Assembly (NCBI GenBank): GCA_002898175.1
Contig: BDSW01000208.1
Coordinates: 1 to 39,930 of the forward strand
Length of the DNA stretch: 39,930 bases
Source of the DNA: a bacterium BMS3Abin04
GTDB lineage: Bacteria; Bacteroidota; Ignavibacteria; Ignavibacteriales; Melioribacteraceae
Direction of reading: 5' to 3'
Positions 5,931 through 32,479 of the stretch are shown here, piece by piece. The notes under the pieces are model-generated. The model was not told the origin of the DNA and did not search any database. It saw nothing but the letters and a program-made list of their open reading frames with translations. Made by a program: the position numbers and the translations under genes. Position 1 is the first letter of the stretch. The number at the start of each line of letters is the position of its first letter.

Positions 5931-8900
5931 ATGCAAAATAATTTAAACTTAGCGCTTAAAAGCAATGAACTTTTTAAAAATGCTGATCTCACAAATTTTG
6001 ATCCTCATGAACTGAAAATTAAAATGATTACGTTAAGAGAAGGAGAAGTGCTGTTTCGAGACGGGGATCAAGCAAATTCTATTTATCTGATATTGGACGG
6101 CGAAATAAACCTCTTAAAAAGGAAAGCAATCGGCAAAACAAGCTCGTTTATTCTCAGTCAAAATGAGTTTTTCGGTCAAGATGAATTCTTTCTTAAAGCT
6201 CCACGTAAATCCACTGCTGTAGCGCTAAAAGATTCGTATATAGCCGAACTTTTTAGAAAGGACTTAAATAATCTTTTGCAGAACTATGACCAAATTTTTA
6301 ATAATATCAAAAAATCTGTTTCTAATATTGACAAATATACAAAAGAACAACTTGAACAATTAGTCGAGCGTGCCAGACAAGAAGCTCTGGGATTAGTGCA
6401 ACCTCCCAAACCGTCCATTTATGAAATTGATGCTAAAAATGAAAGAAATGAAGATAAAGAATTTGATCAAAAAAAGGAAAACAAACCGTTAGATGAAGAG
6501 ATCAACAATTTAAAGGTTGAGCTTAATGAATTAAAAAAAGATAATAAATTTTATAGCAAAGTTATTTTAGAAAAAGACAATTTAATTAATATGCTAAACT
6601 TGAAATTATCCGAATTAGAAAATAAATCTTATGAAAAATCTGAAAATGAGAATAATCTCAAAAGCTTAATTGAAGAGCAAAAACGAAGTATTTTAGAACT
6701 GCGGAATAAAAATGCCGAATATGAACAAAAATATTCAACGCAAAGAAATATTGTAGAGGACCAAAGTCAGAAATTAAAAAACAACCTTAATAAGCAAAGG
6801 GAATTAGAAGAAGAACTTGAAAACCGTAACGGTGCAATTGAAAGACTTCAAAATAATATCGAGGAATTAAAAGAAGAATTAGAAAATACTAAACATGGTG
6901 AATATTCAAAAGATGAACAAGTTACCGAATTAAGAGGAACGGTTAAGGAGCTTGAAGCAAGAATAGTACAATTAGACAAAGAAAAAACGGAATTTATTGA
7001 GAGTAAAACGGAAGATACTCAATCTATACTAAATAGAAATAGTGAACTGGAAAATCAGATAGCTGAACTGAATGAAAAATTAAGTGAATTTGAACAAAAA
7101 ATTTCTGTACAAGAAAACGTTGTTGAAGACCAAAGTAAAAAATTAAAAGACAATTTAAATAGACAAAGAGAATTAGAGGAAGAATTAGAAAACCGTAACG
7201 GTGCAATAGAGAGACTTCAGAATAATGTTGAGGAATTAAAAGAAGAACTTGAGAATACCAAACATGGCGAATATTCTAAGGATGAGCAAGTAAATGAATT
7301 GAGAGAAACGGTTCAAGAGCTTGAATCAAGAATATCGCAGTTAAATCAAGAGAAATCCGAAATACTTGAGAGTAAAACAGAAGAAACTCAATCAATATTA
7401 AATAGAAATAATGAACTCGAAAATCAGATAGCGGAACTCAACGAAAAACTGAATGAATTTGATAAAAATATAAAAGATTCTGAAAACGAAAATGTGCAAA
7501 AAGATAACTTTATAAACACGCTAAACGTTAAAGTTGAAGAGCTAAACCAAAAAATAGAAAGTTTTGACGACGTACAAGCTGAAAATATTAATATTATAGA
7601 AAATCAAAAAGAACACTTAAATGAGCTACAGCTTAAACTCAATAAGCTATTGGACGACAGTAAGTTACAAGAGTTAACAATTAAAAATCAGAAAGAAAAA
7701 ATTCTTGAATTTAAGGCTCTTGAAGCTAAATATATTGCAGCGGAACGAGCTAAAAATGAAATTTTAGGTGACCAAAGCTATAAGTTGGTTGAACTGGAAA
7801 AACTAAACGAAGAATATATAAACAAATTAGATCAGAAAGAAAGTCAGTTAAATGAAATTAAGGAAAAAGTAAACAGGTTTGAAAATGAAATTGAAATCTT
7901 TGAAGATCAACTTAAACAAAAGACCGGCTTAATAAATGAACAAAACGGTTTAATTGAAGAACTGAAGGAAAGCGAAAATAAATTAAACGAAGAGAAAAGA
8001 AATAATAGAACGTTAATTGATAATCTAAATGTCCAAGTAACAAAAATTTCCGAATATAAGACCGAACTTGAAAAGAAAATTGAGCTTAAGAACTCTGAGC
8101 TGAAAGAATTACAAAATAATATAGAAAACTTAAGAAACTCTGAAATGGAACTTAAGTTTACTGTTCAAGAGACTAATCAACTGCTCGATAAAAAAGAGTA
8201 TCAAATTGAGGAACTTAATTCTCAAAGAGAAAACTTAATAGCTGAAAACACAGATAAACGAAATTCAATTGATGATCTGAACAATAAACTAAGCGATTTG
8301 ACCGGGCAGCTTAAAACTGCGCTAGCCGACTATCGGCAAAGTGTTAGCAAATTAACTGAAAGCGAAAATATTATTGCGAATTTAAGAAGCGAGAATGAAC
8401 AAGTTAAAGATAATCTTGAAAAGACGAAACAATTTGTTGATCAAAAACTAAACGAATTAAACGAACTAAGCTTTAAATTAAATGAGCAACAAAAATCCAT
8501 TGAAGAGAAAAATGATCAGCTACATAAACTTAATATTAGAATAAATGAATTTGAAGCAACGGAATTACAACTAAGGGAATCTGAAAAAGAAAAAGTCGAT
8601 ACAATTCAAAAGCTGAACGATAATATTGTTCATCTAAATCAACGCATTGTTGATCTTGCTGCTTCCGAACAAGAAAAAGAAGAAACTTTGCAGAAATATA
8701 CTGCAAAAATAACTGAATTAGAATCAAAAACGAAAGAATTAGTAAAATCAGAAGAGGAAAAGAACAATATTATTGTTAAACAAACTCATTTAATTGCTGA
8801 ACTGGAAAATACAATTGCCGAGCAAAAACAGCTTGAAAAACAAAAGGATAAAGTTCTTGAACAGCTTAATATTGAAGTACATAACCTTAATGCGAAGGTA

Positions 8901-11900
8901 GAAAATTATAAAAAGGCAAATGAAGAACACGAAAATATTATTGAAAACTACAAAGGAAAAATTGATCAAAAATCAGAAGAAGTTAGTAGACTTAATATAA
9001 TTGTAGAAGAACTTGAACGACGTGAAAAACAGAAAAATGAATTTATAGAGAGCCAAGTAAAACAAATTTCGGAGCTTGAAACAATAGAATTAAATCTGAA
9101 AAAACTAGTAGACGAAAAAGAAAGTTTAATTAATGAATTTGAAGAAAAAGTAAATTCCTTAAATTCAACTAAACAAAATCTGGAAAACGAAAAACATAAT
9201 TTAGAAGATAAAATTAGAATTCTTGAACAAAATATTACTGAAAGTAAATTTGAGAATGAAAAACAGATTGAGATAACCAAACAGAAAGAAGAGGTAATAA
9301 ATAATTTAACAACTGAGATTGAAGAACACAAAAACGAAAAAAACAATTATTTTGGAAAGATAAAAGAGCTTGAAGAATCTTTGCTGAATCAGAAATTAAT
9401 GACCGACGAGTTACAGTCCCAAATTACTCAAGCTGTTGATCAAATAAATCAAAAGAACCGGTTGATTCATAATAAAGAGTCCGAAATTGCCAACTTAAAT
9501 GAAGAAATAAATTCACTTCATACTGCTATTGATAATTTTAAGGAGGAAATTGAGCAACAAAGCGAGAAAATTGCACAAATTAGTGTGGTTGAAAAAGAGC
9601 TTACGGATACAAAACGGGAAAAGAATGAATTAATAGAAACATTTAATAATCAAGCTGCTGAGTTAAATTCAAAAGTAAATCACTTAAGTATAGTTAACGC
9701 TGAAAAAAGCGCTGTCATTGAAAATCTTAATGTTAAGATAAAAAGTTTAATAGACGAAAGAGATTCGATAAAAAAATCTTTGGCGGAAAAAGATGTTTTT
9801 GCAGATGAAATGAACAAAAAGGTTGTTGAATATGAATCTAGATTCAGAGCGGTAAATGAAGAAAACGCCGTAAATAAAGAGCTTATTCCAAAATTACGAA
9901 ACGAAATATTATATCTTCGTGAGCGAGAAGCTGATCTGGAAAAAGCCGAAGATGAATATATGAATTTAAATCAAGAGAAATCAAATAAATTAAAAGAACT
10001 TGAATTAAAATTAGATGAATTAAATCAAAAGGCAACCGAAAAAAGCGAAATTGTTGAACGTCAAAGACAAGAAATTAATAAGCTTTTAAGTAATGATTTC
10101 ATGTTAAAAAATAGTCTGGAAGAAAGAGATAAATTTATATCAGAACTTAATACAAGAATAGCTGATTTTGAGAACAGGATAGATATTCTTGAAGAAGATG
10201 ATTATCAAAAAGCCGACGTTATTGAAAGTTTAACCAAGGAAGTTGAAAAACTAAATAAGCAGAAGAAAGAGCTGGAAGAATCAACAAATAATTATCTTAC
10301 AATTATTGAAAGTCTAAAAGATGAAAAAGAAGAACATAAAATTACTGCGGAAAACTATATAGAGTTAGTTGAGAAAAATTCATCGAAACTTAAGGAAAGA
10401 GAAAATCTGTTAAATGAATTACAAGAGAAAGTAGATGAATTAAGCAAAATTGTTCAAGAAAAAGATGAACTTATTAAAGAAAGAGATCAAAAGATTGAAC
10501 ATATTCTAAATGAAGAAGCAAACGTAAAAAATCACTTAGTCGAAAGATCTAAAATACTTGATGAGCTAAACGATCAGATTGCTAATTTAAATAAGAAAAT
10601 TCACTCGCTTGAGAATGAAAATAATGGCAAATCTGAATTGATCGATAATCTTAATAATGCCCTTCAAGAATTACGTAATGAGAAAAGCGAATTTGAAAAC
10701 ATGAAGTTTGAACAGACTAATAATGTTCAAAAACTTGAAGAAAGCATAAATTCACTTAAAGAACACTTAAACGAATATCGGAGCAAAGCGAAACTTCAAA
10801 GTGAAACTATAGATAATCAAAATAAACGAATAAATGAACTTGAAAATAAATTAAATTCAAAGGATTGTGAGTTTAAAGATAAAGAGAAAATGATTTCCAG
10901 ACTAACCAATGAAATTGATAAATTGCAGAAAAACGAGGAAGGATTAAAAGAATCTGAATATAAAATTAACGAATATACCGAGAAGTTTGAAAGCATACAG
11001 AACGAATTGGAGCTTCTTCGGGAAAAATCTGAAAATGATAATAGAGTTCGGAGTGAACAAAAAGAAATAATAGAAAAACAGGAAAAAGAAATTAGCGATT
11101 TGTTAGAAAAACTGAATGAACACGGTAATATCGATAATGATCTATCTGAAGAAACAAAAAAATTACGTGACCAATTAAATTATTATGAATCCATTATCGG
11201 AGAGAAAGAAACTACACTTCAAGAAAAACAAATTCTAATTGATAACTTAAACAGGCAACTGGAAGATATTAATGGGCAACTGTCACAAGACCAATTTAAT
11301 TCCAAAGACAAAGAAGATGAAATAAAAAAAATGCGCGAAGACATTGCCATTCTAAAATCGTTAAATCACGACCTGGAAGATTCAGAGAGTAAAAAAGATC
11401 TCAAAATGGAAGGAATGGCTGATCAGTTAGAAATTCTGAGAACGAAGATTGATGAATATGATTCTAAACTTAAAAACACCGAAAAGGATATTCAAGTTAA
11501 GATGGATCTTATATCAGGTTTAGAAGAGTATATTGAAAAAAATGAACTCGCTTCGAACGGTCAGAAATCTGAAGTTGAAAATCTAACTCAGGAAATGAAA
11601 AATATTAGATCAAGAATTTCCGAATACGAAGATAAAATAAGTTTACTTCAGAATGTTGTTACGGAGAGGGAACAGCAACTTAGTAAGATGAAGTTGGAAA
11701 AAAGAGAAGTTGAAATTAGTGATGAACAGAAGGAACAAATAATTGAACGTCAAGGAGAACAAATCGCGAAGCTGAAAATTTTGGAAGATGAGCTTAAGAA
11801 AATTGAGGAAAGTAAAAATGAACATCAAAAATATTTGGAAAGACAAGTTGAGGAATTGAGAGAAAACATTCTGCTAAGCGAAAGTGAAATTAATCAGAAG

Positions 11901-12575
11901 GAAGATATAATTGAGAGGCAAGTTCAGAAGATTGCCGAATTAGAAGCGCTGATAAGCGAAAATATAGCGGTTGAACCGGAAACAATGATCCAACCGGTGA
12001 ATAATGAGATTGCTGATGTCAAAACTCCTCAAAATAAAACGGGTGAAGAAGATAAGCATGATATTGATCTTGGAAATAATTTAGATGCAATTGAAGATGA
12101 AGAAAAATATCAAATTAGTAATGTAGATGATATGTCGGAACCGATAAATGAAACTTCCGATGAGGGCGAATTAACTGAAACTATAGAGCAGTATGATGAA
12201 ACAAATGCTGAAAGCTTTTTAGAAAAGTCTACTGAAGAATTTGCATGTACATTTAAAGACGGAATTAGTATTGTTACGGTAAATTTACCAAGAGCTACAA
12301 TGGAAAAAGCTGTCGACTTAAAAGACTTTATTCAAAAAGTTGTGGATGAAAACGGGAATAATTTAATCCTGGATTTATCACGAAGTGAATTTGTAGACTC
12401 AACAGTACTCGGAGTTTTGGTAAGTGCACTTAAGAAAGCAAAAGCTGCCGGCGGAAATTTAATTTTAGTCTGGGATGACCAAACCGAGTCTTCAATGTTC
12501 TATATTACAAGAATGGATAAAGTGTTTACAATCTGCAAAACAGTAAGTGAAGCATTGTTATGTTTTGACGAATAA
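5931..12575 (+). CDS. Giant cNMP-binding-like / coiled-coil / STAS protein (2214 residues)
   Basis: Three parts are visible. Residues ~14-130 are a cyclic-nucleotide-binding (CRP/PKA-type) beta barrel (EGEVLFRDGDQANSIYLILDGEI, then FFGQDEFFLKAPRKSTAV). Its phosphate-binding cassette is atypical: the usual Glu of FGE is Gln83, and K93-S94 follow Arg92 where a small residue then Ala is usual, so canonical cAMP/cGMP binding is uncertain. There is no helix-turn-helix. Residues ~187-2010 are near-continuous coiled coil, rich in E/K/N/L, with no tryptophan and a single proline (P1320). Residues ~2010-2100 are an acidic linker. Residues ~2103-2214 are a STAS domain (LILDLSRSEFVDSTVLGVL), as in anti-sigma-factor antagonists, keeping the serine (S2157) that SpoIIAA-type proteins phosphorylate. 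No signal peptide or membrane segment is seen, so it should be cytoplasmic. At 0.15 nm per residue the rod would be about 270 nm. A structural or scaffold protein joining a small-molecule sensor to a partner-switch domain is an inference. Confidence 0.9.
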   Translation: MQNNLNLALKSNELFKNADLTNFDPHELKIKMITLREGEVLFRDGDQANSIYLILDGEINLLKRKAIGKTSSFILSQNEFFGQDEFFLKAPRKSTAVALKDSYIAELFRKDLNNLLQNYDQIFNNIKKSVSNIDKYTKEQLEQLVERARQEALGLVQPPKPSIYEIDAKNERNEDKEFDQKKENKPLDEEINNLKVELNELKKDNKFYSKVILEKDNLINMLNLKLSELENKSYEKSENENNLKSLIEEQKRSILELRNKNAEYEQKYSTQRNIVEDQSQKLKNNLNKQRELEEELENRNGAIERLQNNIEELKEELENTKHGEYSKDEQVTELRGTVKELEARIVQLDKEKTEFIESKTEDTQSILNRNSELENQIAELNEKLSEFEQKISVQENVVEDQSKKLKDNLNRQRELEEELENRNGAIERLQNNVEELKEELENTKHGEYSKDEQVNELRETVQELESRISQLNQEKSEILESKTEETQSILNRNNELENQIAELNEKLNEFDKNIKDSENENVQKDNFINTLNVKVEELNQKIESFDDVQAENINIIENQKEHLNELQLKLNKLLDDSKLQELTIKNQKEKILEFKALEAKYIAAERAKNEILGDQSYKLVELEKLNEEYINKLDQKESQLNEIKEKVNRFENEIEIFEDQLKQKTGLINEQNGLIEELKESENKLNEEKRNNRTLIDNLNVQVTKISEYKTELEKKIELKNSELKELQNNIENLRNSEMELKFTVQETNQLLDKKEYQIEELNSQRENLIAENTDKRNSIDDLNNKLSDLTGQLKTALADYRQSVSKLTESENIIANLRSENEQVKDNLEKTKQFVDQKLNELNELSFKLNEQQKSIEEKNDQLHKLNIRINEFEATELQLRESEKEKVDTIQKLNDNIVHLNQRIVDLAASEQEKEETLQKYTAKITELESKTKELVKSEEEKNNIIVKQTHLIAELENTIAEQKQLEKQKDKVLEQLNIEVHNLNAKVENYKKANEEHENIIENYKGKIDQKSEEVSRLNIIVEELERREKQKNEFIESQVKQISELETIELNLKKLVDEKESLINEFEEKVNSLNSTKQNLENEKHNLEDKIRILEQNITESKFENEKQIEITKQKEEVINNLTTEIEEHKNEKNNYFGKIKELEESLLNQKLMTDELQSQITQAVDQINQKNRLIHNKESEIANLNEEINSLHTAIDNFKEEIEQQSEKIAQISVVEKELTDTKREKNELIETFNNQAAELNSKVNHLSIVNAEKSAVIENLNVKIKSLIDERDSIKKSLAEKDVFADEMNKKVVEYESRFRAVNEENAVNKELIPKLRNEILYLREREADLEKAEDEYMNLNQEKSNKLKELELKLDELNQKATEKSEIVERQRQEINKLLSNDFMLKNSLEERDKFISELNTRIADFENRIDILEEDDYQKADVIESLTKEVEKLNKQKKELEESTNNYLTIIESLKDEKEEHKITAENYIELVEKNSSKLKERENLLNELQEKVDELSKIVQEKDELIKERDQKIEHILNEEANVKNHLVERSKILDELNDQIANLNKKIHSLENENNGKSELIDNLNNALQELRNEKSEFENMKFEQTNNVQKLEESINSLKEHLNEYRSKAKLQSETIDNQNKRINELENKLNSKDCEFKDKEKMISRLTNEIDKLQKNEEGLKESEYKINEYTEKFESIQNELELLREKSENDNRVRSEQKEIIEKQEKEISDLLEKLNEHGNIDNDLSEETKKLRDQLNYYESIIGEKETTLQEKQILIDNLNRQLEDINGQLSQDQFNSKDKEDEIKKMREDIAILKSLNHDLEDSESKKDLKMEGMADQLEILRTKIDEYDSKLKNTEKDIQVKMDLISGLEEYIEKNELASNGQKSEVENLTQEMKNIRSRISEYEDKISLLQNVVTEREQQLSKMKLEKREVEISDEQKEQIIERQGEQIAKLKILEDELKKIEESKNEHQKYLERQVEELRENILLSESEINQKEDIIERQVQKIAELEALISENIAVEPETMIQPVNNEIADVKTPQNKTGEEDKHDIDLGNNLDAIEDEEKYQISNVDDMSEPINETSDEGELTETIEQYDETNAESFLEKSTEEFACTFKDGISIVTVNLPRATMEKAVDLKDFIQKVVDENGNNLILDLSRSEFVDSTVLGVLVSALKKAKAAGGNLILVWDDQTESSMFYITRMDKVFTICKTVSEALLCFDE
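6723..7460 (+). repeat. Tandem 369-bp duplication inside the giant coiled coil
   Basis: Two head-to-tail copies of 369 bp (123 codons): 6723-7091 (residues 265-387) and 7092-7460 (388-510). Several anchors recur at exactly 369 bp (GACCAAAG, GGTGCAAT, CATGG[T/C]GAATATTC, AAAATCAGAT). The proteins share long blocks such as RELEEELENRNGAIERLQNN and KHGEYSKDEQV, while third positions differ widely, so the event is not very recent. A length of 123 equals sixteen heptads plus one eleven-residue hendecad, which keeps the coiled coil in register. Confidence 0.95.
8580..8999 (+). repeat. Five 28-residue coiled-coil units
   Basis: Residues 884-1023 of the giant protein divide into five consecutive units of exactly 28 residues (four heptads). 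They start at SEKEKVDTI, SEQEKEETL, SEEEKNNII, LEKQKDKVL and ANEEHENII, each with an acidic/basic head, an I/L core and a Lys/Glu tail. The next similar motif (REKQKNEFI) is offset by seven residues. A 28-residue charge period is known from filament-forming rods such as myosin. The unit boundaries are read directly; filament assembly is inference. Confidence 0.7.
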
Positions 12576-18847: not shown

Positions 18848-19969
18848 ATGGCAGAAACCAAACTAAAATTTCTAAATTATTCTCCTAACCGCGATGTGGT
18901 TTTTGTGCTTGGTGCGGGTGCTTCGCACCCTGACGGTGTGCCGCTGCAAAAACATATCCTTCCAATGATTCTTTCCGGCGGTATAAAAGAAATTCAAGAA
19001 TCTGAAATTGGAAAACAAGTTATTGAGTTTATTAAAAGCAACTTTGTATATAATTCGAAAAGGCACCAATATCCTCAGCTCGAGGCTGTTTTTGGTTTCC
19101 TGGACTATTTTATTCAACAAAATGAGAGTTTAAATTCTAAATATCCTAATTTCAAGATTAGAACTATTAAGGAATATTTAATTAAGTTGATTCACTATAT
19201 AGTTAATCTTCAAACGGATAAACCGAGTAAGTATTACCATTTGTTTTGGAAGGGTATTTTAGATAACAATAAAAATGTTTCAATTATAACCCTCAATTAC
19301 GATACATTACTCGAGCAAGCATTCGATTTTCTGTTTAAAAAATACGGTTATATTGATTATTGTTTTCACTTGATGAATTATGACAAAATTAAACCGTTAA
19401 AGAGATTTAACTTTTGGATAAATCCCCGCGAACCTGTGGTAAGAGAGAACGGTTATGATCCATCCGCATTCAAAATAATTAAAGTTCATGGAAGTTTAAA
19501 TTGGAAATATTGTAATTGCTGCAATCAAACTTTACTTACACCTTGGGACAGAAAAATTGATTTGCAAAGGGGAAAATTTTTAGGTTATACATATCCAGAC
19601 AAAGAAGAGTATGAATATCGTTGTCCGTTAGACGGTACCGAGTTTCAAACATTAATAATGCCGCCGTCTTATGTTAAATCATTAAATCAGCCGGTAATAA
19701 CTCAGTTGCTTTCAGAAGCAGCCAGAGAAATTAGAGATGCAAAAAAAATTATCTTTGTCGGTTACTCCGTTTCGGATGCCGATGTACATATTAAAGCATT
19801 GTTTAAAAAACAATTAAATCCCAACAAAGAAATAATTGTTATCAACACAAAAATATCGGATGCATTGAAGAATAAATATTATGCTTTAAGCGACAAAATT
19901 GAATTCAAAAATTTATCATTTGAAGAAATGGTAACTAATCCAAAAATCATGACTGATCTTTTAACTTAA
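18848..19969 (+). CDS. SIR2-like domain protein with cysteine cluster
   Basis: A 373-residue single-domain SIR2-like protein. The NAD-binding glycine motif is VLGAGASHPDG (20-30). TLNYD (148-152) corresponds to the Asn/Asp pair of sirtuins, and KVHGSLNW (212-219) carries the candidate catalytic His214. Four cysteines (C222, C224, C225 and C259) flank a loop as in a zinc site, although CxCC...C is not the usual two-CxxC pattern. IIFVGYSVSDADVHI (301-315) is the late Rossmann motif of SIR2-like families. Members act either as NAD hydrolases in antiphage defence or as deacylases. With no TIR, STAND or nuclease partner in view, the role is undecided. A PadR-type regulator follows after 14 bp and may control it. 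Confidence 0.85.
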   Translation: MAETKLKFLNYSPNRDVVFVLGAGASHPDGVPLQKHILPMILSGGIKEIQESEIGKQVIEFIKSNFVYNSKRHQYPQLEAVFGFLDYFIQQNESLNSKYPNFKIRTIKEYLIKLIHYIVNLQTDKPSKYYHLFWKGILDNNKNVSIITLNYDTLLEQAFDFLFKKYGYIDYCFHLMNYDKIKPLKRFNFWINPREPVVRENGYDPSAFKIIKVHGSLNWKYCNCCNQTLLTPWDRKIDLQRGKFLGYTYPDKEEYEYRCPLDGTEFQTLIMPPSYVKSLNQPVITQLLSEAAREIRDAKKIIFVGYSVSDADVHIKALFKKQLNPNKEIIVINTKISDALKNKYYALSDKIEFKNLSFEEMVTNPKIMTDLLT

Positions 19970-24115: not shown

Positions 24116-25249
24116 TCAAAGCCAGTCTGCAGCAACATAATCCAGTAACCTCTGGATTAATTCTTTGTTGTGTCTATCTATTTCGGGTTTGCGCGGTATC
24201 GGGTCGTATGCCGGAATTTTATCGTGCAGATATTTCGGCATAGGTTTTCCCAATTTTTCTTGCCAGCGTTTGCGCCATTTTTCCGGGAGCTTATCGGGTA
24301 GATCAATGTTGTGGAGTAATAAAAATAGTAAAGTCCATATTCTTGAAGTAGCCGTAATAGAATAACCACCGCCAAGTGTAAAAAGAGCTCTACCTTTGCA
24401 ATTGTTGTCTATAATTTCAAAGATCTTTTTATAAAGCTTCTCAAAGTCATGAGTAGTAAGCATTAAATCAGCAAGAGGATCGGAAAAGTGTGGATCGGCA
24501 CCGGCTTGAATAACCAGAGCATCCGGACGAAACCACTCTAATGCAGGTACAACCACGCCTTCAAGAACTTCTAAGTAAGAATCTCCTTCCGTGAAGGGTT
24601 CTAAAGGTAAATTTAATTTTAATGAACGTCCCATTCCTCTCCCTAATTCGTGCAGCCATCCTGTTCCTGGGAAAAGATATTCACCGGATTCATGCATTGA
24701 AATTGTCATTACATTTTCATCGGAATAAAACATTTCTTGTACTCCATCACCATGATGGACGTCCACATCAAGATAAGCAACATGCCAGCCTTGATCAGTC
24801 ATATACTTAATAGCTAAAGCAAGATCATTGTACGTACAAAAACCCGCCGCAAGACTTTTATGTGCATGATGAAAACCTCCACCGAATTGAAGTACTTTGT
24901 GAGTTTTGTTTTCAACCAGAAGTTTTGCACCTAAAAGCGTTCCTCCAACTTGATAACGAGCTCCTTCGGTCATACCAAGTACAATAGGGTTATCCTGTGT
25001 TCCGAAACCATATGCTTCTGCTTCTGCTCTTTTTTCTCCTTTGCTTAGAGCCTCAACCACTTCAATATAATTTTTTGAGTGTATTACTTCCAAATCTTCG
25101 GGGGTTACAGGTTCGGGCTGAATAATATCGGTTTGAATACCAAGCTCTTTTAACAGGTCAAAAACCATTTCCACTCGTAATGGACTGAACGGATGTTCCG
25201 CTCCCAGATCGTATTCACCATATTTTGGATGGTATATTACTTTACACAT
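24116..25249 (-). CDS. acuC: AcuC-type deacylase (histone-deacetylase superfamily)
   Basis: A 377-residue zinc-dependent deacylase from the ATG at 25249; a TTG at 25267 would add six residues. Numbered from the ATG, the His pair of GGGFHHAH (127-128), the zinc ligands in LDVDVHHGDGV (D163, H165), D252 in QAGADPH and GGGYS near the end are the complete class-I-like HDAC active site. In Bacillus subtilis AcuC removes the acetyl group that AcuA puts on acetyl-CoA synthetase. Here the gene sits in a cluster with acs and a candidate acetyltransferase, so the same substrate is likely. The ATG lies inside the end of the acuB-like gene (13-base overlap), pointing to translational coupling. It has no sirtuin features. 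Confidence 0.93.
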   Translation of the reverse strand: MCKVIYHPKYGEYDLGAEHPFSPLRVEMVFDLLKELGIQTDIIQPEPVTPEDLEVIHSKNYIEVVEALSKGEKRAEAEAYGFGTQDNPIVLGMTEGARYQVGGTLLGAKLLVENKTHKVLQFGGGFHHAHKSLAAGFCTYNDLALAIKYMTDQGWHVAYLDVDVHHGDGVQEMFYSDENVMTISMHESGEYLFPGTGWLHELGRGMGRSLKLNLPLEPFTEGDSYLEVLEGVVVPALEWFRPDALVIQAGADPHFSDPLADLMLTTHDFEKLYKKIFEIIDNNCKGRALFTLGGGYSITATSRIWTLLFLLLHNIDLPDKLPEKWRKRWQEKLGKPMPKYLHDKIPAYDPIPRKPEIDRHNKELIQRLLDYVAADWL

Positions 25250-25866
25250 GAGATATGTATTGGCCAAAGGACTTCAAAGCCGATATCACATATAGCTTCG
25301 GCAAGTTTTCTTATTTCCATAGTATTAACACGTAGTACTAAACGTATTTTATCATTTTTTTCTTGGTACGTCAAAATTGAATGAATATTAATTTTTCTTT
25401 CTGCAAGAAGTGCCGTCAGTCGTGCAAGTTCACCCGATTTATCCGATAGGCGTATATCTAAGCGTCCGGATGGTTTATGTACTCCTGTTAAAAGCAGCAT
25501 TGCGTCCAGAATATCTGCACTTGTTACTATACCAACTAGCTGCAAATCCTCAATAACCGGTAAACATCCTATTTTTAATTCCCTCATTAACTGTGTCGCA
25601 ATCTCAACGGGGTCCGACGGGTTAGTGGTTTCGACCGGATGATTCATTATTTCTTTAACTTCCGCAGTTGGATTAAATGGTCTCTTTGCAAGCCGGCTTG
25701 TAGCTAAACGAAGATCACGGTCAGTTACAATTCCAACAAGTTTTTCATTTTCCATAACCGGGAGATGGCGAATTCCTTTATCCTGCATTAACTGATATGC
25801 GTCACATAAAGTCGTGTTCGGCTTTATCGTTAATGGATTTAAATGCATTATTTCACGAATTAACAT
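25237..25866 (-). CDS. acuB: CBS-pair plus ACT domain protein (AcuB-like)
   Basis: A 209-residue cytoplasmic regulator. Two CBS motifs (about 1-60 and 70-125, each with the [I/V]-G-I-V-T-[D/S] strand: VGIVTDRDL, VGIVTSADIL) form a Bateman module that usually binds adenine nucleotides. Residues ~135-205 (RLDIRLSDKSGELARLTALLAERKINIHSIL) are an ACT domain, a small-ligand sensor. The same CBS-CBS-ACT order occurs in AcuB proteins beside acuC in Bacillus, where the biochemical role is not well defined. It is placed between the acetyltransferase-like gene (24-base gap) and acuC (overlap), so it probably modulates the acetylation cycle in response to energy charge; that is inference. Confidence 0.9.
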   Translation of the reverse strand: MLIREIMHLNPLTIKPNTTLCDAYQLMQDKGIRHLPVMENEKLVGIVTDRDLRLATSRLAKRPFNPTAEVKEIMNHPVETTNPSDPVEIATQLMRELKIGCLPVIEDLQLVGIVTSADILDAMLLLTGVHKPSGRLDIRLSDKSGELARLTALLAERKINIHSILTYQEKNDKIRLVLRVNTMEIRKLAEAICDIGFEVLWPIHISCVK

Positions 25867-25890
25867 GATGGCCCTTTTATTTAATCATAC

Positions 25891-28299
25891 TTAATATGCC
25901 GGTCTTTTGGCTGCCGGATTAAGAGACATGGATAAATTTGAAATTAAAATTCGGTCCTTATTCACAGCCGCTTTTAACTCAAGCCTCCACAACCAAGGAA
26001 GTTCTTCGATCATTTGTGAAACTCTTCCTAAAATACTGCTAAAGTCTGTTCTATTTTCAATACATAAAATTTCTAATATTTCATCAATATCCTGATCAGT
26101 TAAAGGTGTAATTCGAACTATCTTTAAAGATGGTTTTTGAACTATTTCTATTAAAGGTCCGAATAATGGGTCCGGTTTTACCTTTAGAATAAATGGATTT
26201 CCTTCTTTAGAAGTTTGAGTAATGCTTAATCCGAAATTCATTAAAATATTTTCCGCTGTAGATATTTCAACTTTCACAATTTGTTGAGAAGTTAAATTGC
26301 TTAAAATTGATTGAATCTCTTGACGGGCAAGTTCGGGTTTTACATCTTCAAACCAAACAAGTTTGCCTGGAGGTTTGTTGCAGTATTCGGCATAACGAAC
26401 AATTCTTCCTAAAGCACGTGCTGCAGATTCGGGAAATCTGAATGCCGGAAACATCCTTTTGTTATTATGATTGCTGTCTTCCTTAACCAAGGAAATGGAT
26501 CCGGTTTCACCCATTAAACAAAGAAGTACGGGTTTTTTGTAACTCATTTCTTTTTCGGCTAACAATACTCCCCTGCGTATGGCCGCTGCAACATGTTCAG
26601 ATCCACACTGACCTACATATGCATAGCCGACTAACAGGGAATCAATATTTTCATTAACCAGCGCTTCATATACTTTTGTTTCATAACTTTCGGGGGAAGT
26701 AAATGCTCCTAAATTAACAAGTTTTGGTCCGGCAAGTTCAAGTCCATTAGATTCGCAAGTATCTGCAAAAATTGTTGCTACTCCTGCCGAATTTGCCAGG
26801 ATACTAACACGATTGCCTTTGGGTATAGGCTGGTGATCCAAAACTACGGCTACATCAAAGAGTTCTTCTAAAGTTTCGGTTAAAATAATACCGGTTTGTC
26901 TAAAGAGCGCTTCTACTTGTCGCGTCCCCCCGGATAAGGTTCCGCTTTTTGCTTCGGCTGTTTTTCTGCCTTCTACGCTGCGGGCGCTTTTTACACACAA
27001 AATTGGTTTTTTATAAGACATTCTTCTTGCAATTCTAACAAACCTTCTCGGATTACCAAAAGTTTCTAAATAAAGAATCGCCATTTTAGTGTTTGTATCT
27101 TCTTCCCAATAGAGCAGTAAATCATTTCCTGAAACGTCGGCGCGATTCCCCGCAGAGACAAATGTTGTAAATCCGACTCCCTTTTCCATTGCATATTCAA
27201 GAATGACCAATCCTAGCGCTGCTGAATGTGAAAAAAATCCGGCACTTCCCCGTTGAACAATATTGGGGGCTAAGCTTGCATTAAGATGAACTTTCGGATC
27301 GGAATTCATAAGTCCCAAACAGCTCGGACCTAGTAATCTGACGCCATGTTCTCTTACAAGTTTTACTAAGTTTTTTTGTCTTTTATTACCTTCTTCGCCT
27401 GCTTCGGCAAATCCTGCCGATACTACCAATAAACCTCTTGCTCCGGCGGTAATAGATTTTTTTGCTACTTCTAAAACTTTTTCTGCTGGAACAGATATTA
27501 CAGAAAGATCAATTTTCCCCGGTATTTCCTGAAGTGATGAATAGGCTTTTACCCCGTTTACAGAGGTAGCTTCCGAGTTTACAGGATAAATAGTACCTTG
27601 GAAATTACCGTTTAGAATATTTTTAAAAATCATATGTCCAATTGACGACGGATCTCTGGATGCCCCTACAACAGCTACTGATTTGGGTCGCAATAAAGGG
27701 GCTAAAGAGTTTGCAACAGCAATACGTTCTCTTAAATTTGATTTTCGCCAAGTTGCTGCTGCTCCGCTTGTTGGAAGCTCAACATGAACCGTATCTGAAT
27801 GCCAAACTTTATGAACCTCGAATCCTGAGCTTTTAAAAACATTAATCATAGGTTGATTATCGGGAAGCACTTCTGCTTCAAATTCTATATAACCGTTCGC
27901 TGCAGCTAAACCGGCGAGTCGTTCCAGCAATAGTGTGCTAATTCCTTTTCCTTGATAATCATCTTCAATTAAAAACGCAATTTCAGCCGATTTTTTATTT
28001 CCCATAGCAATATAATTACCAAGACCAACAATTTTGGATTCTGATCCTTCACTTGTAATTGCCAGTAAACATCCGGACTCGGTAAAATCTCCTTCACAAA
28101 GATTTTTAATTACATCGTGTGGAACTTCGGAGACAGCAGCCATAAAACGCATTCTTAAACTTTCTCTGGATACGCGTTTCATAAATTCTTTAACTTTGGG
28201 AATGTCATTTGGTAAGGCAGGTCTAAACATTAGACCCTGTCCATCTTTAAGTATTACATGCTCTTTATAAGCGAGACCTTCAGGAATTATACGGAACAT
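25891..28299 (-). CDS. GNAT plus acyl-CoA-synthetase-like protein acetyltransferase (Pat-type)
   Basis: An 802-residue two-part protein. Residues ~20-175 are a GNAT domain with the acetyl-CoA loop DDYQGKGISTLLLERL (113-128). Residues ~203-700 resemble NDP-forming acyl-CoA synthetases: CoA-binding Rossmann VAVVGASRDPSSIGHMIFKNIL (208-229), LGPSCLGLMN (323-332) and FFSHSAALG (355-363). The last ~100 residues are a shortened ATP-grasp-like region without clear ATP-binding motifs, so synthetase activity is doubtful. Pat of Salmonella carries the same modules with GNAT at the C-terminus; here it is N-terminal, a reversed order described for some actinobacterial Pat proteins. The neighbouring acs and acuC make Acs the likely substrate. 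It follows a strong terminator after acs and so may have its own promoter. Confidence 0.88.
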   Translation of the reverse strand: MFRIIPEGLAYKEHVILKDGQGLMFRPALPNDIPKVKEFMKRVSRESLRMRFMAAVSEVPHDVIKNLCEGDFTESGCLLAITSEGSESKIVGLGNYIAMGNKKSAEIAFLIEDDYQGKGISTLLLERLAGLAAANGYIEFEAEVLPDNQPMINVFKSSGFEVHKVWHSDTVHVELPTSGAAATWRKSNLRERIAVANSLAPLLRPKSVAVVGASRDPSSIGHMIFKNILNGNFQGTIYPVNSEATSVNGVKAYSSLQEIPGKIDLSVISVPAEKVLEVAKKSITAGARGLLVVSAGFAEAGEEGNKRQKNLVKLVREHGVRLLGPSCLGLMNSDPKVHLNASLAPNIVQRGSAGFFSHSAALGLVILEYAMEKGVGFTTFVSAGNRADVSGNDLLLYWEEDTNTKMAILYLETFGNPRRFVRIARRMSYKKPILCVKSARSVEGRKTAEAKSGTLSGGTRQVEALFRQTGIILTETLEELFDVAVVLDHQPIPKGNRVSILANSAGVATIFADTCESNGLELAGPKLVNLGAFTSPESYETKVYEALVNENIDSLLVGYAYVGQCGSEHVAAAIRRGVLLAEKEMSYKKPVLLCLMGETGSISLVKEDSNHNNKRMFPAFRFPESAARALGRIVRYAEYCNKPPGKLVWFEDVKPELARQEIQSILSNLTSQQIVKVEISTAENILMNFGLSITQTSKEGNPFILKVKPDPLFGPLIEIVQKPSLKIVRITPLTDQDIDEILEILCIENRTDFSSILGRVSQMIEELPWLWRLELKAAVNKDRILISNLSMSLNPAAKRPAY

Positions 28300-28345
28300 T
28301 TATTAACCACTTAAAATTTTATATATAAACATATAAAATTATCAT

Positions 28346-28384
28346 AAAAAAAGAGGTTTCAATCCGAAGAAAGAAACCTCTTTT
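28346..28384 (-). terminator. Intrinsic terminator after acs
   Basis: A perfect 12-bp stem, AAAAGAGGTTTC (28349-28360) and GAAACCTCTTTT (28373-28384), encloses a 12-base loop. For leftward transcription the hairpin is followed by seven T residues (complement of 28346-28352). It lies 12 bp beyond the acs stop codon and 47 bp before the acetyltransferase start, so most acs transcripts should end here. The A-run on the other side would also allow some rightward termination. Confidence 0.9.
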
Positions 28385-28395
28385 GTGAAAGAAAA

Positions 28396-30429
28396 TTAAT
28401 AAAGCTTTTTAATTTCTTCAACAATTTCCGGATTTGCCAATGTTGTAACATCACCGGCATCTTTTCCCGCAGCAATTGCACCAAGCACTCTGCGCATAAT
28501 TTTGCCTGAACGAGTTTTCGGCATATCGGGAACAATCCACACTCTACCCGGTTTTGCAATAGGTCCAATCTCTGAAGCCAAAGTATCAGAAATCTTTTTC
28601 TTTAATGCCTCTGTAGGCTCAATGCCGGGTTTTAAAGAGACAAAGATATGAGGAACTTTTCCCTTTATTGGATCTGCAACCGGAACAACAGCAGCTTCAC
28701 CAACTTCGTCAACCATAAGTCCGGCAGATTCAAGTTCTTTAGTTCCGAGACGGTGCCCGGCAACATTGATAACATCATCTATCCTACCGAGAATTCTAAA
28801 ATAACCGTCCGGAGCTTCTACCGCACCATCACCGGCAAAGTAAGGCCAATCATGCCAATCTTTACTTTCAGGATCTTTATTGTAACGAGCGAAATACACA
28901 TTCTTGAATCTTTCGTCGTCACCCCAGATAGTCATCATTAACCCGGGCCATGGATTACGAATTACAATATTACCGGCTTTCCCGCAACCTTTTGGAAGCG
29001 GATTTCCGTCGTCGTCCAAAATTTCGGGATAAATACCCGGTACACCGGGGCCAGTACTTCCCGGTTTCATTTTATGCAGACCTGGAACCGTAGAACATAA
29101 AAATCCGCCGGTTTCAGTCTGCCACCAAGTATCAACAATAACAGCTTCTTTTTTACCTACAGTATTATAATACCAACGCCAGACATTTGGTTCAATCGGT
29201 TCACCAACAGTAGTCATGTGTTTAAAATGATAATTATATTTTGCCGGTTCATCCGGACCAACTCGACGAAGAGCACGTATTGCCGTAGGTGATGTGTGGA
29301 AAATGTTTACATCGAGTTCTTCAGCAACACGCCATGGACGACCAGCATCGGGATGTGTTGGAACCCCTTCAAAAATAACGGAAGAGGCAGCAAGAGCCAA
29401 AGGTCCATAAATAATATATGAATGACCGGTAATCCAGCCTATATCCGCCATACACCAGTAAACATCTTCGGGATGAATGTCCTGAATATATTTTGATGTG
29501 CCTGTTACATAAGACATATAACCGCCTATAGAATGCTGAGCTCCTTTAGGTTTCCCAGTTGTACCTGAAGTGTACATCAAGAACAATGTATCGGTTGAAT
29601 CCAAACTTACAGGTTTGACTTTAACATTCCTATAGTCTTTTAATATGTCATTAATGAATACATCTCTTCCTTCTACAAGTGGTGTAGCTGCAGAATATTT
29701 GCCGGGATAACGCTGCCAAATCAGTACTTTTTCAACATGCTGTCCTTCTTCTTCCGCACGCCCGCAAGCAATATCTGCTTTTTCTTTGTGATCTAATAAT
29801 TTACCGCCGCGATAGTAGGAATCCGCTGTAATTAAAAATTTACTCTTTGCATCCACAATTCTATCGGCACATGCTTTGCCGGAGAATCCGGAAAACACTT
29901 GTGAATGTATTACACCGAGACGTGCACAAGCAAGCATTGTAATTGCTAATTCCGGTATCATGGGCATATGTAAAGTTACAGTATCACCTTTCTTAAGCCC
30001 GCAATAATCTCTAAGTACAGCTGCAAATTCATTTACTTTGTTATAAAGTTCCTGATAGGTCATATGAACAATAGGCTCATCTTCTGGTTCAGGCACAAAA
30101 TGAATGGCGGTTTTATTTTTATATTTGGCTAAATGTCTATCTATACAATTGTAACTAGCATTTAGCTTTCCGCCGACAAACCATTTCCAATGCGGAGGAT
30201 CACTGGTATCGAGGGTAGTGCCCCAATATTTATCCCATGTTAGCAAATCGGCATAATCTTTATAACATTCAGGAAAATTTTTCTCCCCAAACTTTTCTAA
30301 AATATCGGGGTCTGTTAAATTTGCTTGTGCTATAAATTTAGTATTTGGTTCAAAATATTCTTCTTCTTTCCAGTGTACAGCAATTTGGGCTTCGGAAACA
30401 ATATTTTCATCGTTTTTTTCATCAGCCAT
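28396..30429 (-). CDS. acs: Acetyl-CoA synthetase (AMP-forming)
   Basis: A 677-residue Acs that converts acetate, ATP and CoA to acetyl-CoA via acetyl-AMP. The phosphate loop TSGTTGKPKG is at 287-296. WWQTETGG contains the acetate-pocket tryptophan (W436, matching W414 of Salmonella Acs). GRIDDVINVAGHRLG is the hinge region. The acetylation motif PKTRSGK (637-643) is intact, with K643 equivalent to Salmonella K609, the lysine switched off by Pat-type acetyltransferases. Upstream by 39 bp is satP; downstream is a strong terminator and then the candidate acetyltransferase, acuB and acuC. AAGGAA upstream of the ATG is the ribosome-binding site. Confidence 0.98.
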   Translation of the reverse strand: MADEKNDENIVSEAQIAVHWKEEEYFEPNTKFIAQANLTDPDILEKFGEKNFPECYKDYADLLTWDKYWGTTLDTSDPPHWKWFVGGKLNASYNCIDRHLAKYKNKTAIHFVPEPEDEPIVHMTYQELYNKVNEFAAVLRDYCGLKKGDTVTLHMPMIPELAITMLACARLGVIHSQVFSGFSGKACADRIVDAKSKFLITADSYYRGGKLLDHKEKADIACGRAEEEGQHVEKVLIWQRYPGKYSAATPLVEGRDVFINDILKDYRNVKVKPVSLDSTDTLFLMYTSGTTGKPKGAQHSIGGYMSYVTGTSKYIQDIHPEDVYWCMADIGWITGHSYIIYGPLALAASSVIFEGVPTHPDAGRPWRVAEELDVNIFHTSPTAIRALRRVGPDEPAKYNYHFKHMTTVGEPIEPNVWRWYYNTVGKKEAVIVDTWWQTETGGFLCSTVPGLHKMKPGSTGPGVPGIYPEILDDDGNPLPKGCGKAGNIVIRNPWPGLMMTIWGDDERFKNVYFARYNKDPESKDWHDWPYFAGDGAVEAPDGYFRILGRIDDVINVAGHRLGTKELESAGLMVDEVGEAAVVPVADPIKGKVPHIFVSLKPGIEPTEALKKKISDTLASEIGPIAKPGRVWIVPDMPKTRSGKIMRRVLGAIAAGKDAGDVTTLANPEIVEEIKKLY

Positions 30430-30468
30430 AGCTTTATATTCCTTATTTTAATTTAAGAATATTATTAA

Positions 30469-31047
30469 TTATTTTTCACCAATTGGAAGAACTGTCTTTC
30501 CATAAGTTTCATTTATAACTAGCGCTAAAGAAAGGTAAACCGCAGACAATCCGCAGAATAATCCTTCCCATCCGGCAATTATACCAACTGTTGCACTTCC
30601 TGTTGCATCTTTAATTGCAAGTAGCCAAAATAGGATAAAAAGAGTAAAAAATACTACCTGCAAAGCTTTATTATGTTTAAGAGTTGCTACCCACATACCA
30701 AAAGTGAACAGTCCCCACATAAACAAATAAGCTACCATAGCTCCCTCTGCAGGCGCATCAAACCATTTCCAATGCCCGCCGAGAATAAGAAATACAAGTG
30801 TTATCCAGAACAGACCATACGAAGTAAATGCTGTAGTTCCAAATGTATTCCCTTTCTTCCATTCCATCCAACCTGCAAATACTTGTGCTAAACCCCCGTA
30901 AAAAACACCCATTGCAAGTATCATTGTCCCTAAATGAAAAATGCCGGCGTTGTGTAGATTTAGTAGAACAGTTGTCATACCGAATGCCATTAATCCTAAT
31001 GGAGCCGGATTTGCGGTTGTGTCTACTATACGAGTTTCTTCTGCCAT
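30469..31047 (-). CDS. satP: Acetate/succinate transporter (SatP, YaaH/GPR1/FUN34 family)
   Basis: A 192-residue inner-membrane protein with six predicted membrane segments. The family signature NPAPLGL is at residues 13-19, and the rest ([50 protein letters not shown]) aligns with the acetate-uptake fold. The ATG has an excellent Shine-Dalgarno (GGAGG, minus strand, 31053-31057). Its gene heads the acs cluster with a 39-bp gap and is the likely promoter-proximal gene of the acetate operon. Import of acetate feeding directly into Acs is the natural reading. A palindrome at 31096-31114 is a candidate operator. Confidence 0.95.
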
Positions 31048-31761
31048 GTTAACCTCCAGTAATTAAATTATTTATGGAATTATGAACTACAATTAATTTC
31101 ACCGTTAGTGAAATCGTATTATTGTTATGCTAAGTTAAGGGAATTGATGTGCAATCAGAGAAGGGTTTAGAATGATATGTATTAAAAAGTTGTGTTCAAA
31201 AAAACTTGTAGTATTTTGCGCCTTTGAAATGCAACCTTTATTATGGAAGATATTTAAAGACCTACTAACAAATCTATTGTTAAAAGAAAGTTTAGACCGT
31301 ACCATTTGCCAATATTAGTAACCTAAAATAATTGAATATTTTGGTTGACAAAAGAAAATCAGCCAATGTGTATTTATATTAAAGAATATATAAAGTATAG
31401 TCTTTTAATAAGAGAAGCTATAACAGGTTCTCTTAAAGATAGATCAAAAAATATATTTTGTAGTCATATAAACGCGGTGTAAAATTGCCTTATAGTATAT
31501 GTATTTATCATAAAAAATTCAAGTGTTTTTTTAATAAAAGTGAATTTTATTTTTTGGACTACCGAACTATAAATCAAATAAAGATTTGTTTTATTTTATA
31601 GTCATTAAGCAAATTGAACTATTAATATTTTGAACAATAAAATATCTTATCATTTGTATCAGAATTAAATACTATAAATTATTATTGTAATCATGGTTTG
31701 TTAAAAGCTAAAGATAAGCTCTGGGAAACAACATGTTATTGCAGTTGGGTTTATAAATTGA
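31048..31761. other. Promoter region of acetate genes and unassigned spacer (714 bp)
   Basis: The first ~70 bp carry the palindrome at 31096-31114 and presumably the satP promoter. The rest is AT-rich, with stop codons in all frames, and shows no tRNA, no terminator and no intact gene. It may be further remains of the decayed locus to its right, but I cannot show that from the sequence. Confidence 0.5.
31096..31114. promoter_or_regulatory. Candidate operator of the acetate cluster
   Basis: ATTTCAC-N5-GTGAAAT: perfect 7-bp arms with spacer CGTTA, centred 58 bp before the satP start codon. The arms resemble half a parS site, but the five-base spacer rules that out. They are the reverse order of CRP half-sites, so a CRP protein is not the expected ligand. 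The regulator is unknown. Confidence 0.45.
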
Positions 31762-31819
31762 ATGAAGAATATGTGGAATAGCTTTTTAATTTTTGCTGAG
31801 GTATAAGGTTAAGGGAATA

Positions 31820-32396
31820 TTGTTGGATATTAAAAGTAGACTTTATCTTTATGTCTTTTTGGTAATGGCATTATTTGTTGGGAATCCTTGGGGTTTTTAA
31901 GAACTAAATATTAATCCTATCAGCATAATAGCGGTCTTTATTTCGCTTATTTAGGATATTTTACTCGCAGCATTTTTATTTCTAAAAAGGATTTATGGAA
32001 ATCAAGAAATACTTTCCCGGTGTTTCTGCAATTAGTATTTTGATAATTATATTTTTTTCGGTAACTAAGATCACAAAAACAGTAATTTAAAATCCCATTG
32101 TTCTTTTTCTGGTTCCGGTTGTATTATTTAACTATTATATAATCCAAACTTATTTAAGCTTTCTTGCTGTTAAATGACTTAAATTAAAATACGAGGAAAA
32201 CATTATACTTATTATTGGCGCTGCTGCAAGTTTATAAGCCATATTATTAGCGGTTGCTGCAGCATTATTCAGCAGCTTAACGGTCTTTGCTTTATTGTTT
32301 TAACCAATAATGCAAATTTTATATTTACTACTTTTGATATATAAATTTGGACCAAAAATTAAAAGATCGCTCGGAGCAATAATTACGAAGGAATAA
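31820..32396 (+). pseudogene. Decayed membrane-protein gene(s)
   Basis: One frame from TTG 31820 (preceded by AAGGG) encodes hydrophobic protein (LDIKSRLYLYVFLVMALFVGNPWGF, INPISIIAVFISLI, DILLAAFLFLKRIYGNQEI) interrupted by TAA 31898-31900 and TAG 31952-31954, ending at TAG 32033-32035. A second frame starts with ATG 31995 (MEIKKYFPGVSAISILIIIFF) and runs 134 codons to TAA 32394-32396 with four internal stops: TAA 32088, TGA 32175, TAA 32235 and TAA 32301. Between stops the sequence is consistently membrane-like (VVLFNYYIIQTYLSFLAVK, ILLAVAAALFSSLTVFALLF). Such a frame-coherent series of stops is typical of an old pseudogene, either two overlapping genes or one with a frameshift. The short frame MKNMWNSFLIFAEV at 31762 may be an earlier remnant. 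The family is unknown. Confidence 0.65.
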
Positions 32397-32479
32397 TTCG
32401 GATTAGCGCAAAGAATTCTGTTAATGTTTTTAAGTCCTTTTTAAATTATATTTCATTTTTAAAATAAACGGAGAAAATA

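Follow-up and report, generated by a model that had tools for sequence, protein, structure and literature searches.

The window, by which we mean the whole stretch of 39,930 nucleotides that was analysed, carries on its forward strand an open frame that runs from an ATG to a stop codon without a break and encodes a protein of 2,214 residues, Table 1. Pfam searches together with a coiled-coil register model place its parts in the order cNMP-binding domain, coiled coil, acidic linker and STAS domain, and both end domains score above the Pfam curated cut-offs. Neither a helix-turn-helix DNA-binding domain nor a membrane transport domain was returned by the Pfam scan of the full-length protein, and the coiled coil is hydrophilic. 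The first-pass annotation had described a single continuous frame of this kind, and the frame is indeed intact.

Table 1. Features of the cNBD-rod-STAS gene; residues are those of the encoded protein, positions those of the window.
Feature	Position	Strand	Basis
cNBD-rod-STAS protein, 2,214 aa	5931..12575	+	ATG start, single frame; orthologues
CRP-like cNMP-binding domain with flanking helices, residues 1-152 (Pfam core 34-119)	5931..6386	+	Pfam E 1.9e-16, AlphaFold, Foldseek
R92, phosphate-binding-cassette Arg	6204..6206	+	invariant in 12/12 rod proteins
Proline-containing hinge between cNBD and rod, residues 153-186 (P158, P159, P161, P186)	6387..6488	+	
Coiled-coil rod, residues 187-2010, ~271 nm if continuous	6489..11960	+	proline count, register model, periodicity
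In-frame tandem duplication within the rod, 369 nt (123 aa), 80-82% identical	6717..7462	+	
Longest single heptad register, residues 479-1668, with 28-residue four-heptad super-repeat	7365..10934	+	
Acidic, low-confidence (flexible) linker, residues 2011-2105	11961..12245	+	AlphaFold confidence, composition
STAS domain, residues 2109-2208	12255..12554	+	Pfam E 5.5e-11, AlphaFold, Foldseek
S2157, equivalent of SpoIIAA Ser58	12399..12401	+	alignment; PMC11418112

An AlphaFold model of the N-terminal end, built from 12 family members, shows a CRP-like barrel with helices, and the best Foldseek matches of this domain are cAMP receptor proteins/CRP, GlxR and PKA (E ~1e-10), in agreement with the cNMP-type barrel that had been proposed. 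In classical cAMP domains the Glu of the phosphate-binding cassette contacts the ribose. The corresponding residue preceding R92 is Q83 in the window protein, and it is Gln in the long rods and Tyr in most of the short ones. Because this ribose-contacting Glu is replaced, ligand sensing by the CRP-like end must be considered uncertain on the basis of its residues, even though the cassette Arg is invariant. A class III nucleotidyl cyclase is encoded in the same genome. The closest relatives of the domain are cNBD-GAF-HATPase paralogues of the same genomes (G000:C59, 727 aa, 41% identity), which end in a GAF domain and a histidine-kinase-type ATPase and have neither rod nor STAS domain; a tree of cNBD sequences is compatible with one or with several origins of the fusion (AU p 0.27 for one clade). 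Proteins with the order cNBD, acidic linker, GAF and HATPase range from 727 to 1,668 aa (L002 1191-3152; L073 3992-7099; L072 8200-13206). Their H-box reads LIQDIKKPI or IISDIKKPI and is devoid of the phospho-accepting His, and an ECF sigma gene is found near such proteins in L002, L073 and L079.

The central part of the protein is a real coiled coil by two measures: the spacing of hydrophobic residues peaks at a period of 3.500 with a power of 134, where 20 shuffles reach at most 9.1, and the register model keeps one heptad register over 1,190 residues. Single-register stretches in two orthologues amount to about 1,280 and 990 residues. P1320 is the sole proline from residue 187 to residue 2015, and the 1,824 residues of the rod, at 0.1485 nm each, correspond to a length of 271 nm, so that the earlier estimate of ~1,820 residues, one proline and ~270 nm is reproduced almost exactly. 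In the genus of the window the rod is built of ~65 copies of the 28-residue super-repeat, with a consensus of roughly xELxxKIxELxxxxxEKxxxIxxLNxKI; in half of the copies one of the four d positions is occupied by Lys. Identity between positions of the window rod spaced by a multiple of 28 exceeds that for other multiples of 7 by 0.031, whereas 1,000 heptad shuffles give at most 0.013, and the same signal is seen in two orthologues. The 28-residue repeat is absent from the rod of L083, and the rod of L086, from another genus, consists of 33-residue units with a period of 3.68, that is, of hendecads. The a positions of the core are mostly Ile, Leu or Val and the d positions mostly Leu, as is usual for parallel dimers, and from this core composition we predict that the chains pair in parallel as a coiled-coil dimer.

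Conservation is concentrated at the two ends. When the window protein is compared with its nearest orthologue, L080, identity drops from 80% in the first 150 residues to 25-43% along the rod and recovers to 65% at the C terminus. Most indels between long orthologues have lengths that are multiples of 7, but the alignment program favours such gaps in coiled coils and we give this no weight as proof. The 369-nt tandem duplication illustrates how the rod can grow. Estimated rod lengths across the family extend from about 45 to 314 nm, a roughly sevenfold range, with the short members at about 45-75 nm (about 45 nm in L101). Since length and type of repeat vary while the ends are kept, the family conserves a stiff helical spacer and not a fixed length or surface. 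The similarity between the length of the window rod and the width of a thin bacterial cell had earlier been taken to suggest a ruler; an exact ruler matched to cell width is ruled out by this spread of lengths, with complete members of 692-2,504 aa, and by the unrelated repeat types.

The linker that follows the rod is acidic, as had been noted, with 31% Asp/Glu and a net charge of -24. Beyond it, an AlphaFold model from 22 family members gives a STAS fold with a core pLDDT mostly above 90, for which the best Foldseek matches are anti-sigma-factor antagonists (E about 1e-7; the top hits have a TM by target of 0.73-0.85). Structure prediction on the two termini, the check that the first-pass annotation had called for, thus yields a CRP fold at one end and an anti-sigma-antagonist fold at the other. 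Each of the 22 STAS domains in the alignment has the motif D-S-T, and S2157, the residue that had been singled out as phosphorylatable, aligns with the first Ser of the SpoIIAA D-S-S; the S58/R67 numbering fits D57-S58 of SpoIIAA, so that this first Ser is phospho-Ser58 (PMC11418112). The rod STAS domain is predicted to be phosphorylated at the conserved Ser.

Separate searches with each end find both in the same ORF of other genomes, confirmed by Pfam in orthologues of 2,504, 2,389, 1,769, 1,205, 886, 843, 726 and 692 aa, the first three of which answer the earlier suggestion to look for co-occurrence of the two domains in proteins of more than 1,500 residues. The arrangement is present in at least 15 of 79 Melioribacteraceae genomes (Ignavibacteriota), in two of them cut by contig ends, and a scan of named genomes places these ORFs in Melioribacteraceae/Ignavibacteria MAGs of several genera. 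When 391 genomes of the class were scanned, the long ORFs among the matches listed, which reach down to E about 2e-28, were all in Melioribacteraceae. The gene lies in the window between a glycosyltransferase-like gene and mnmE, and the order prfA, glycosyltransferase-like gene, rod and mnmE is kept in G002; another independently assembled orthologue shares one flanking gene. An apparent lack of the rod in G003 is doubtful because mnmE, its neighbour, is missing there too, making an assembly gap likely, and this case was set aside. The source of the window is a draft genome of 391 contigs, probably metagenome-assembled, and it could be argued that two or three separate genes were wrongly joined. 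The frame is open throughout, however, and independently assembled genomes of several genera have the same architecture, with both ends in one ORF; such a chimera is ruled out by these same-ended orthologues, and we regard its likelihood as negligible. We found no description of the cNBD-rod-STAS architecture in the open-access literature and no Pfam or NCBIfam model of the whole, in line with the earlier statement that no family with such ends on a long soluble rod was known. The proteins are a real but undescribed family, whose job is likely to be that of holding a regulatory switch at a distance.

Components with which a STAS domain might work are encoded in the genome of the window, which has 11 SpoIIE matches and four stand-alone HATPase_c_2 (RsbW-like) kinases (G000:C144, C123, C280, C213), none adjoining the rod gene. 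In rod-less relatives there is a conserved cluster of a small STAS gene (STAS-A) followed by a PAS-histidine kinase, an NtrC-like sigma-54 regulator, a second STAS gene (STAS-B) and a receiver-PP2C. Stand-alone STAS-A, counted at 62% identity or more to the STAS-A of G009, is found in 31 of the 79 family genomes and rods in at least 15, and no genome has both; the chance of zero overlap is 2e-4 when genomes are counted and 0.014-0.066 when genera are. STAS-B sits between the sigma-54 regulator and the receiver-PP2C in G009, G011, G033, G006, G053 and six short-rod genomes, and it is missing from each of the five members of the window's lineage that were examined (G000, G001, G002, G003, G007), where kinase, regulator and receiver-PP2C are present. 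The module of G010 also has no STAS-B, though no rod was found in that genome. The rod gene of G007 is directly upstream of the kinase, regulator and receiver-PP2C genes, on the same strand and with a gap of 493 bp. Taken together, these data point to the rod STAS domain as a substitute for the small STAS proteins of the module, but fall short of proof. In a tree of STAS domains the rods fall into one clade of weak support (74/53) with no tie to STAS-A. A conserved operon of rod and module was considered and rejected, as the neighbourhood is limited to G007 and has no counterpart in the sister L082. A conserved signalling cluster at L125 3383-16462 comprises genes for a sigma-54 activator, a Ser/Thr kinase with PEGA, a kelch protein, STAS-A, a U32 peptidase, an MFS protein, a PAS-kinase, an NtrC-like regulator, STAS-B and a receiver-PP2C. 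G010 also contains three tandem STAS genes near a CheW-like gene (L131 13470-15800); the product of one of them is extended at its N terminus by about 370 aa that are acidic and apparently disordered.

The reading that we prefer, and to which we assign an even chance, is that a very long (dimeric) rod holds a partner-switch STAS domain at one tip and CRP-like domains at the other. In a parallel dimer the two CRP-like domains would lie together, with the two STAS domains at the opposite end on their flexible acidic linkers. One of the RsbW-like kinases of the genome would phosphorylate the STAS domains, and a SpoIIE-type PP2C would reverse this, the best candidate being the receiver-PP2C (G000:C215, L155 1722-2864) of the histidine kinase/sigma-54 regulator module. 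A two-component signal would thereby decide if a partner is captured at the STAS end. The opposite, CRP-like end might bind a small ligand or a docking site, fixing the position of the rod, which would itself be spacer and tether, loosely constrained in length and changing by gain or loss of coiled-coil modules; rods of varying size and construction are as would be expected of a spacer. It is less likely that a mechanical signal travels directly from one end of the rod to the other, because it would be damped by register shifts and by the hinges at both ends (the Pro-containing segment 158-186 and the acidic segment 2011-2105). The earlier suggestion of a scaffold with a sensor at one end and a partner-switch module at the other therefore survives as the best reading, given the loss of STAS genes and the arrangement in G007, in a form without an exact ruler. 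More tentatively, somewhat short of an even chance, we propose a 'remote' partner switch in which STAS domains are carried on dimeric rods of 45-314 nm with a CRP-type sensor or anchor opposite, signalling depends on where the ends are, and the rod has been rebuilt from different repeats with the ends kept. The usual picture of partner switching is one of small STAS proteins that diffuse; a STAS domain fixed to the end of a rod of up to about 300 nm would, if true, make it spatial. Such a family would also serve as a natural experiment that shows which properties of a coiled-coil spacer have to be kept, with heptads in 28-residue units in some rods and hendecads in others, and the module supplies concrete candidate partners.

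A cytoskeletal role, in which the protein would assemble through its rod like an intermediate filament and its ends would regulate assembly or recruit clients, is unlikely in our judgement. The very long, regular coiled coil with its 28-residue super-repeat is what draws attention to it, as 28-residue repeats also occur in myosin tails, where they serve lateral assembly, and two orthologues give weak matches to the crescentin rod. These reach 20.6 and 53.9 bits against a Rod_CreS cut-off of 100, however, and the window protein has no Rod_CreS match in Pfam at E 0.01. Nor does the window rod have a convincing long-range charge period when compared with a heptad-shuffled control; the differing repeats of L083 and L086 imply that there is no shared assembly surface, and the rods of the short members reach only about 45-75 nm. 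Fast sequence divergence, the large range of lengths, the tandem duplication and the differing types of repeat could alternatively mean that the rod has little specific function, the ends working as in shorter proteins and rod length drifting almost neutrally through duplication of helical repeats. The long single registers of the window protein and two orthologues require selection for a continuous coiled coil, and neutral drift is correspondingly very doubtful.

A quite improbable alternative is that a nucleotide-like ligand, bound at the CRP end, acts through the STAS end on a cation-chloride cotransporter (CCC), which would be controlled in this way, the rod providing reach. Regulation of transporters by STAS domains has precedents in MlaB and SLC26 (PMC7367683), and a prokaryotic CCC gene is directly downstream of short rods, on the same strand, in G400/L089 (21 bp), G401/L088 (49 bp), G119 and G413, and one further gene away in G018. 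Orthologues are present, unlinked, in G000, G001, G002 and G007, and overall CCC genes occur in 9 of 15 rod genomes and 9 of 63 others (Fisher p 6e-4, kinship ignored). Yet six rod genomes have no CCC orthologue (G008, G014, G016, G020, G300, G410), nine rod-less genomes do have one, and the gene is unlinked in every long-rod genome in which it is found. Short-rod genomes keep STAS-B and more often have an adjoining CCC gene, which suggests another client in that branch, and ion transport may be this client. The CCC genes beside short cNBD-rod-STAS genes are located at L089 10375-12525, L088 880-3036 and L165 4339-6489.

Among known systems the rod protein would work most like the STAS switches controlled by a receiver-PP2C, by analogy, and yet it is no single-domain antagonist. 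HsbA/HsbR of Pseudomonas, SypA/SypE of Vibrio, SpoIIAA and RsbV share with it the STAS fold and the conserved phosphorylatable Ser, and the pairing of a receiver-PP2C with STAS proteins in HsbR/HsbA (PMC6482189) and SypE/SypA (PMC4517449) recurs in the conserved module of the rod family, where, unlike in the HsbR/SypE-type systems, kinase and PP2C are not parts of one fusion protein. HsbA, SypA, SpoIIAA and RsbV are STAS proteins of about 110 aa, whereas the rod STAS domain is the tip of a protein of 692-2,504 residues with a CRP-like domain. Like the rod protein, FrzS and AglZ of Myxococcus begin with a signalling fold and continue as a coiled coil, which serves to place a regulator in the cell; FrzS consists of a receiver domain, a 258-residue coiled coil and a C-terminal tail (PMC1974792). 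The N termini of FrzS and AglZ are receiver-like, in contrast to the cNBD of the rod protein, neither has a STAS domain, and the FrzS coil is about seven times shorter than the window rod. SulP/SLC26 transporters have STAS and, in some cases, cyclic-nucleotide domains, and both STAS and cNMP-type domains are found among Aspergillus SLC transporters (PMC5541321); unlike the rod protein, SulP/SLC26 proteins are membrane transporters with no coiled-coil rod. Crescentin and FilP are long cytoplasmic coiled coils without CRP-like or STAS ends, and CRP/FNR regulators share the cNMP beta-barrel but have the C-terminal HTH that is missing here.

Several other features of the window deserve mention. 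Positions 24116-31047 hold genes for acetyl-CoA synthetase-like, GNAT-acyl-CoA ligase, CBS-ACT (AcuB-like), histone-deacetylase-type (AcuC-like) and GPR1/FUN34/yaaH transporter proteins, likely a locus for acetate use and reversible lysine acetylation. The adjoining 1.4 kb (31048-32479) are AT-rich and have no ORF of 80 aa or more, tRNA or Rfam match; Rfam and tRNA scans of the whole window were empty. A SIR2_2-domain protein is encoded at 18848-19969, and its N terminus closely resembles that of a protein on the rod contig of G007 (L071 16660-17775). In L132 a small ORF (12077-12361) opens with about 15 Arg-Leu dipeptide repeats. Finally, positions 453-2357 of the window encode an M14 carboxypeptidase with a golvesin-type domain and a type IX secretion tail.
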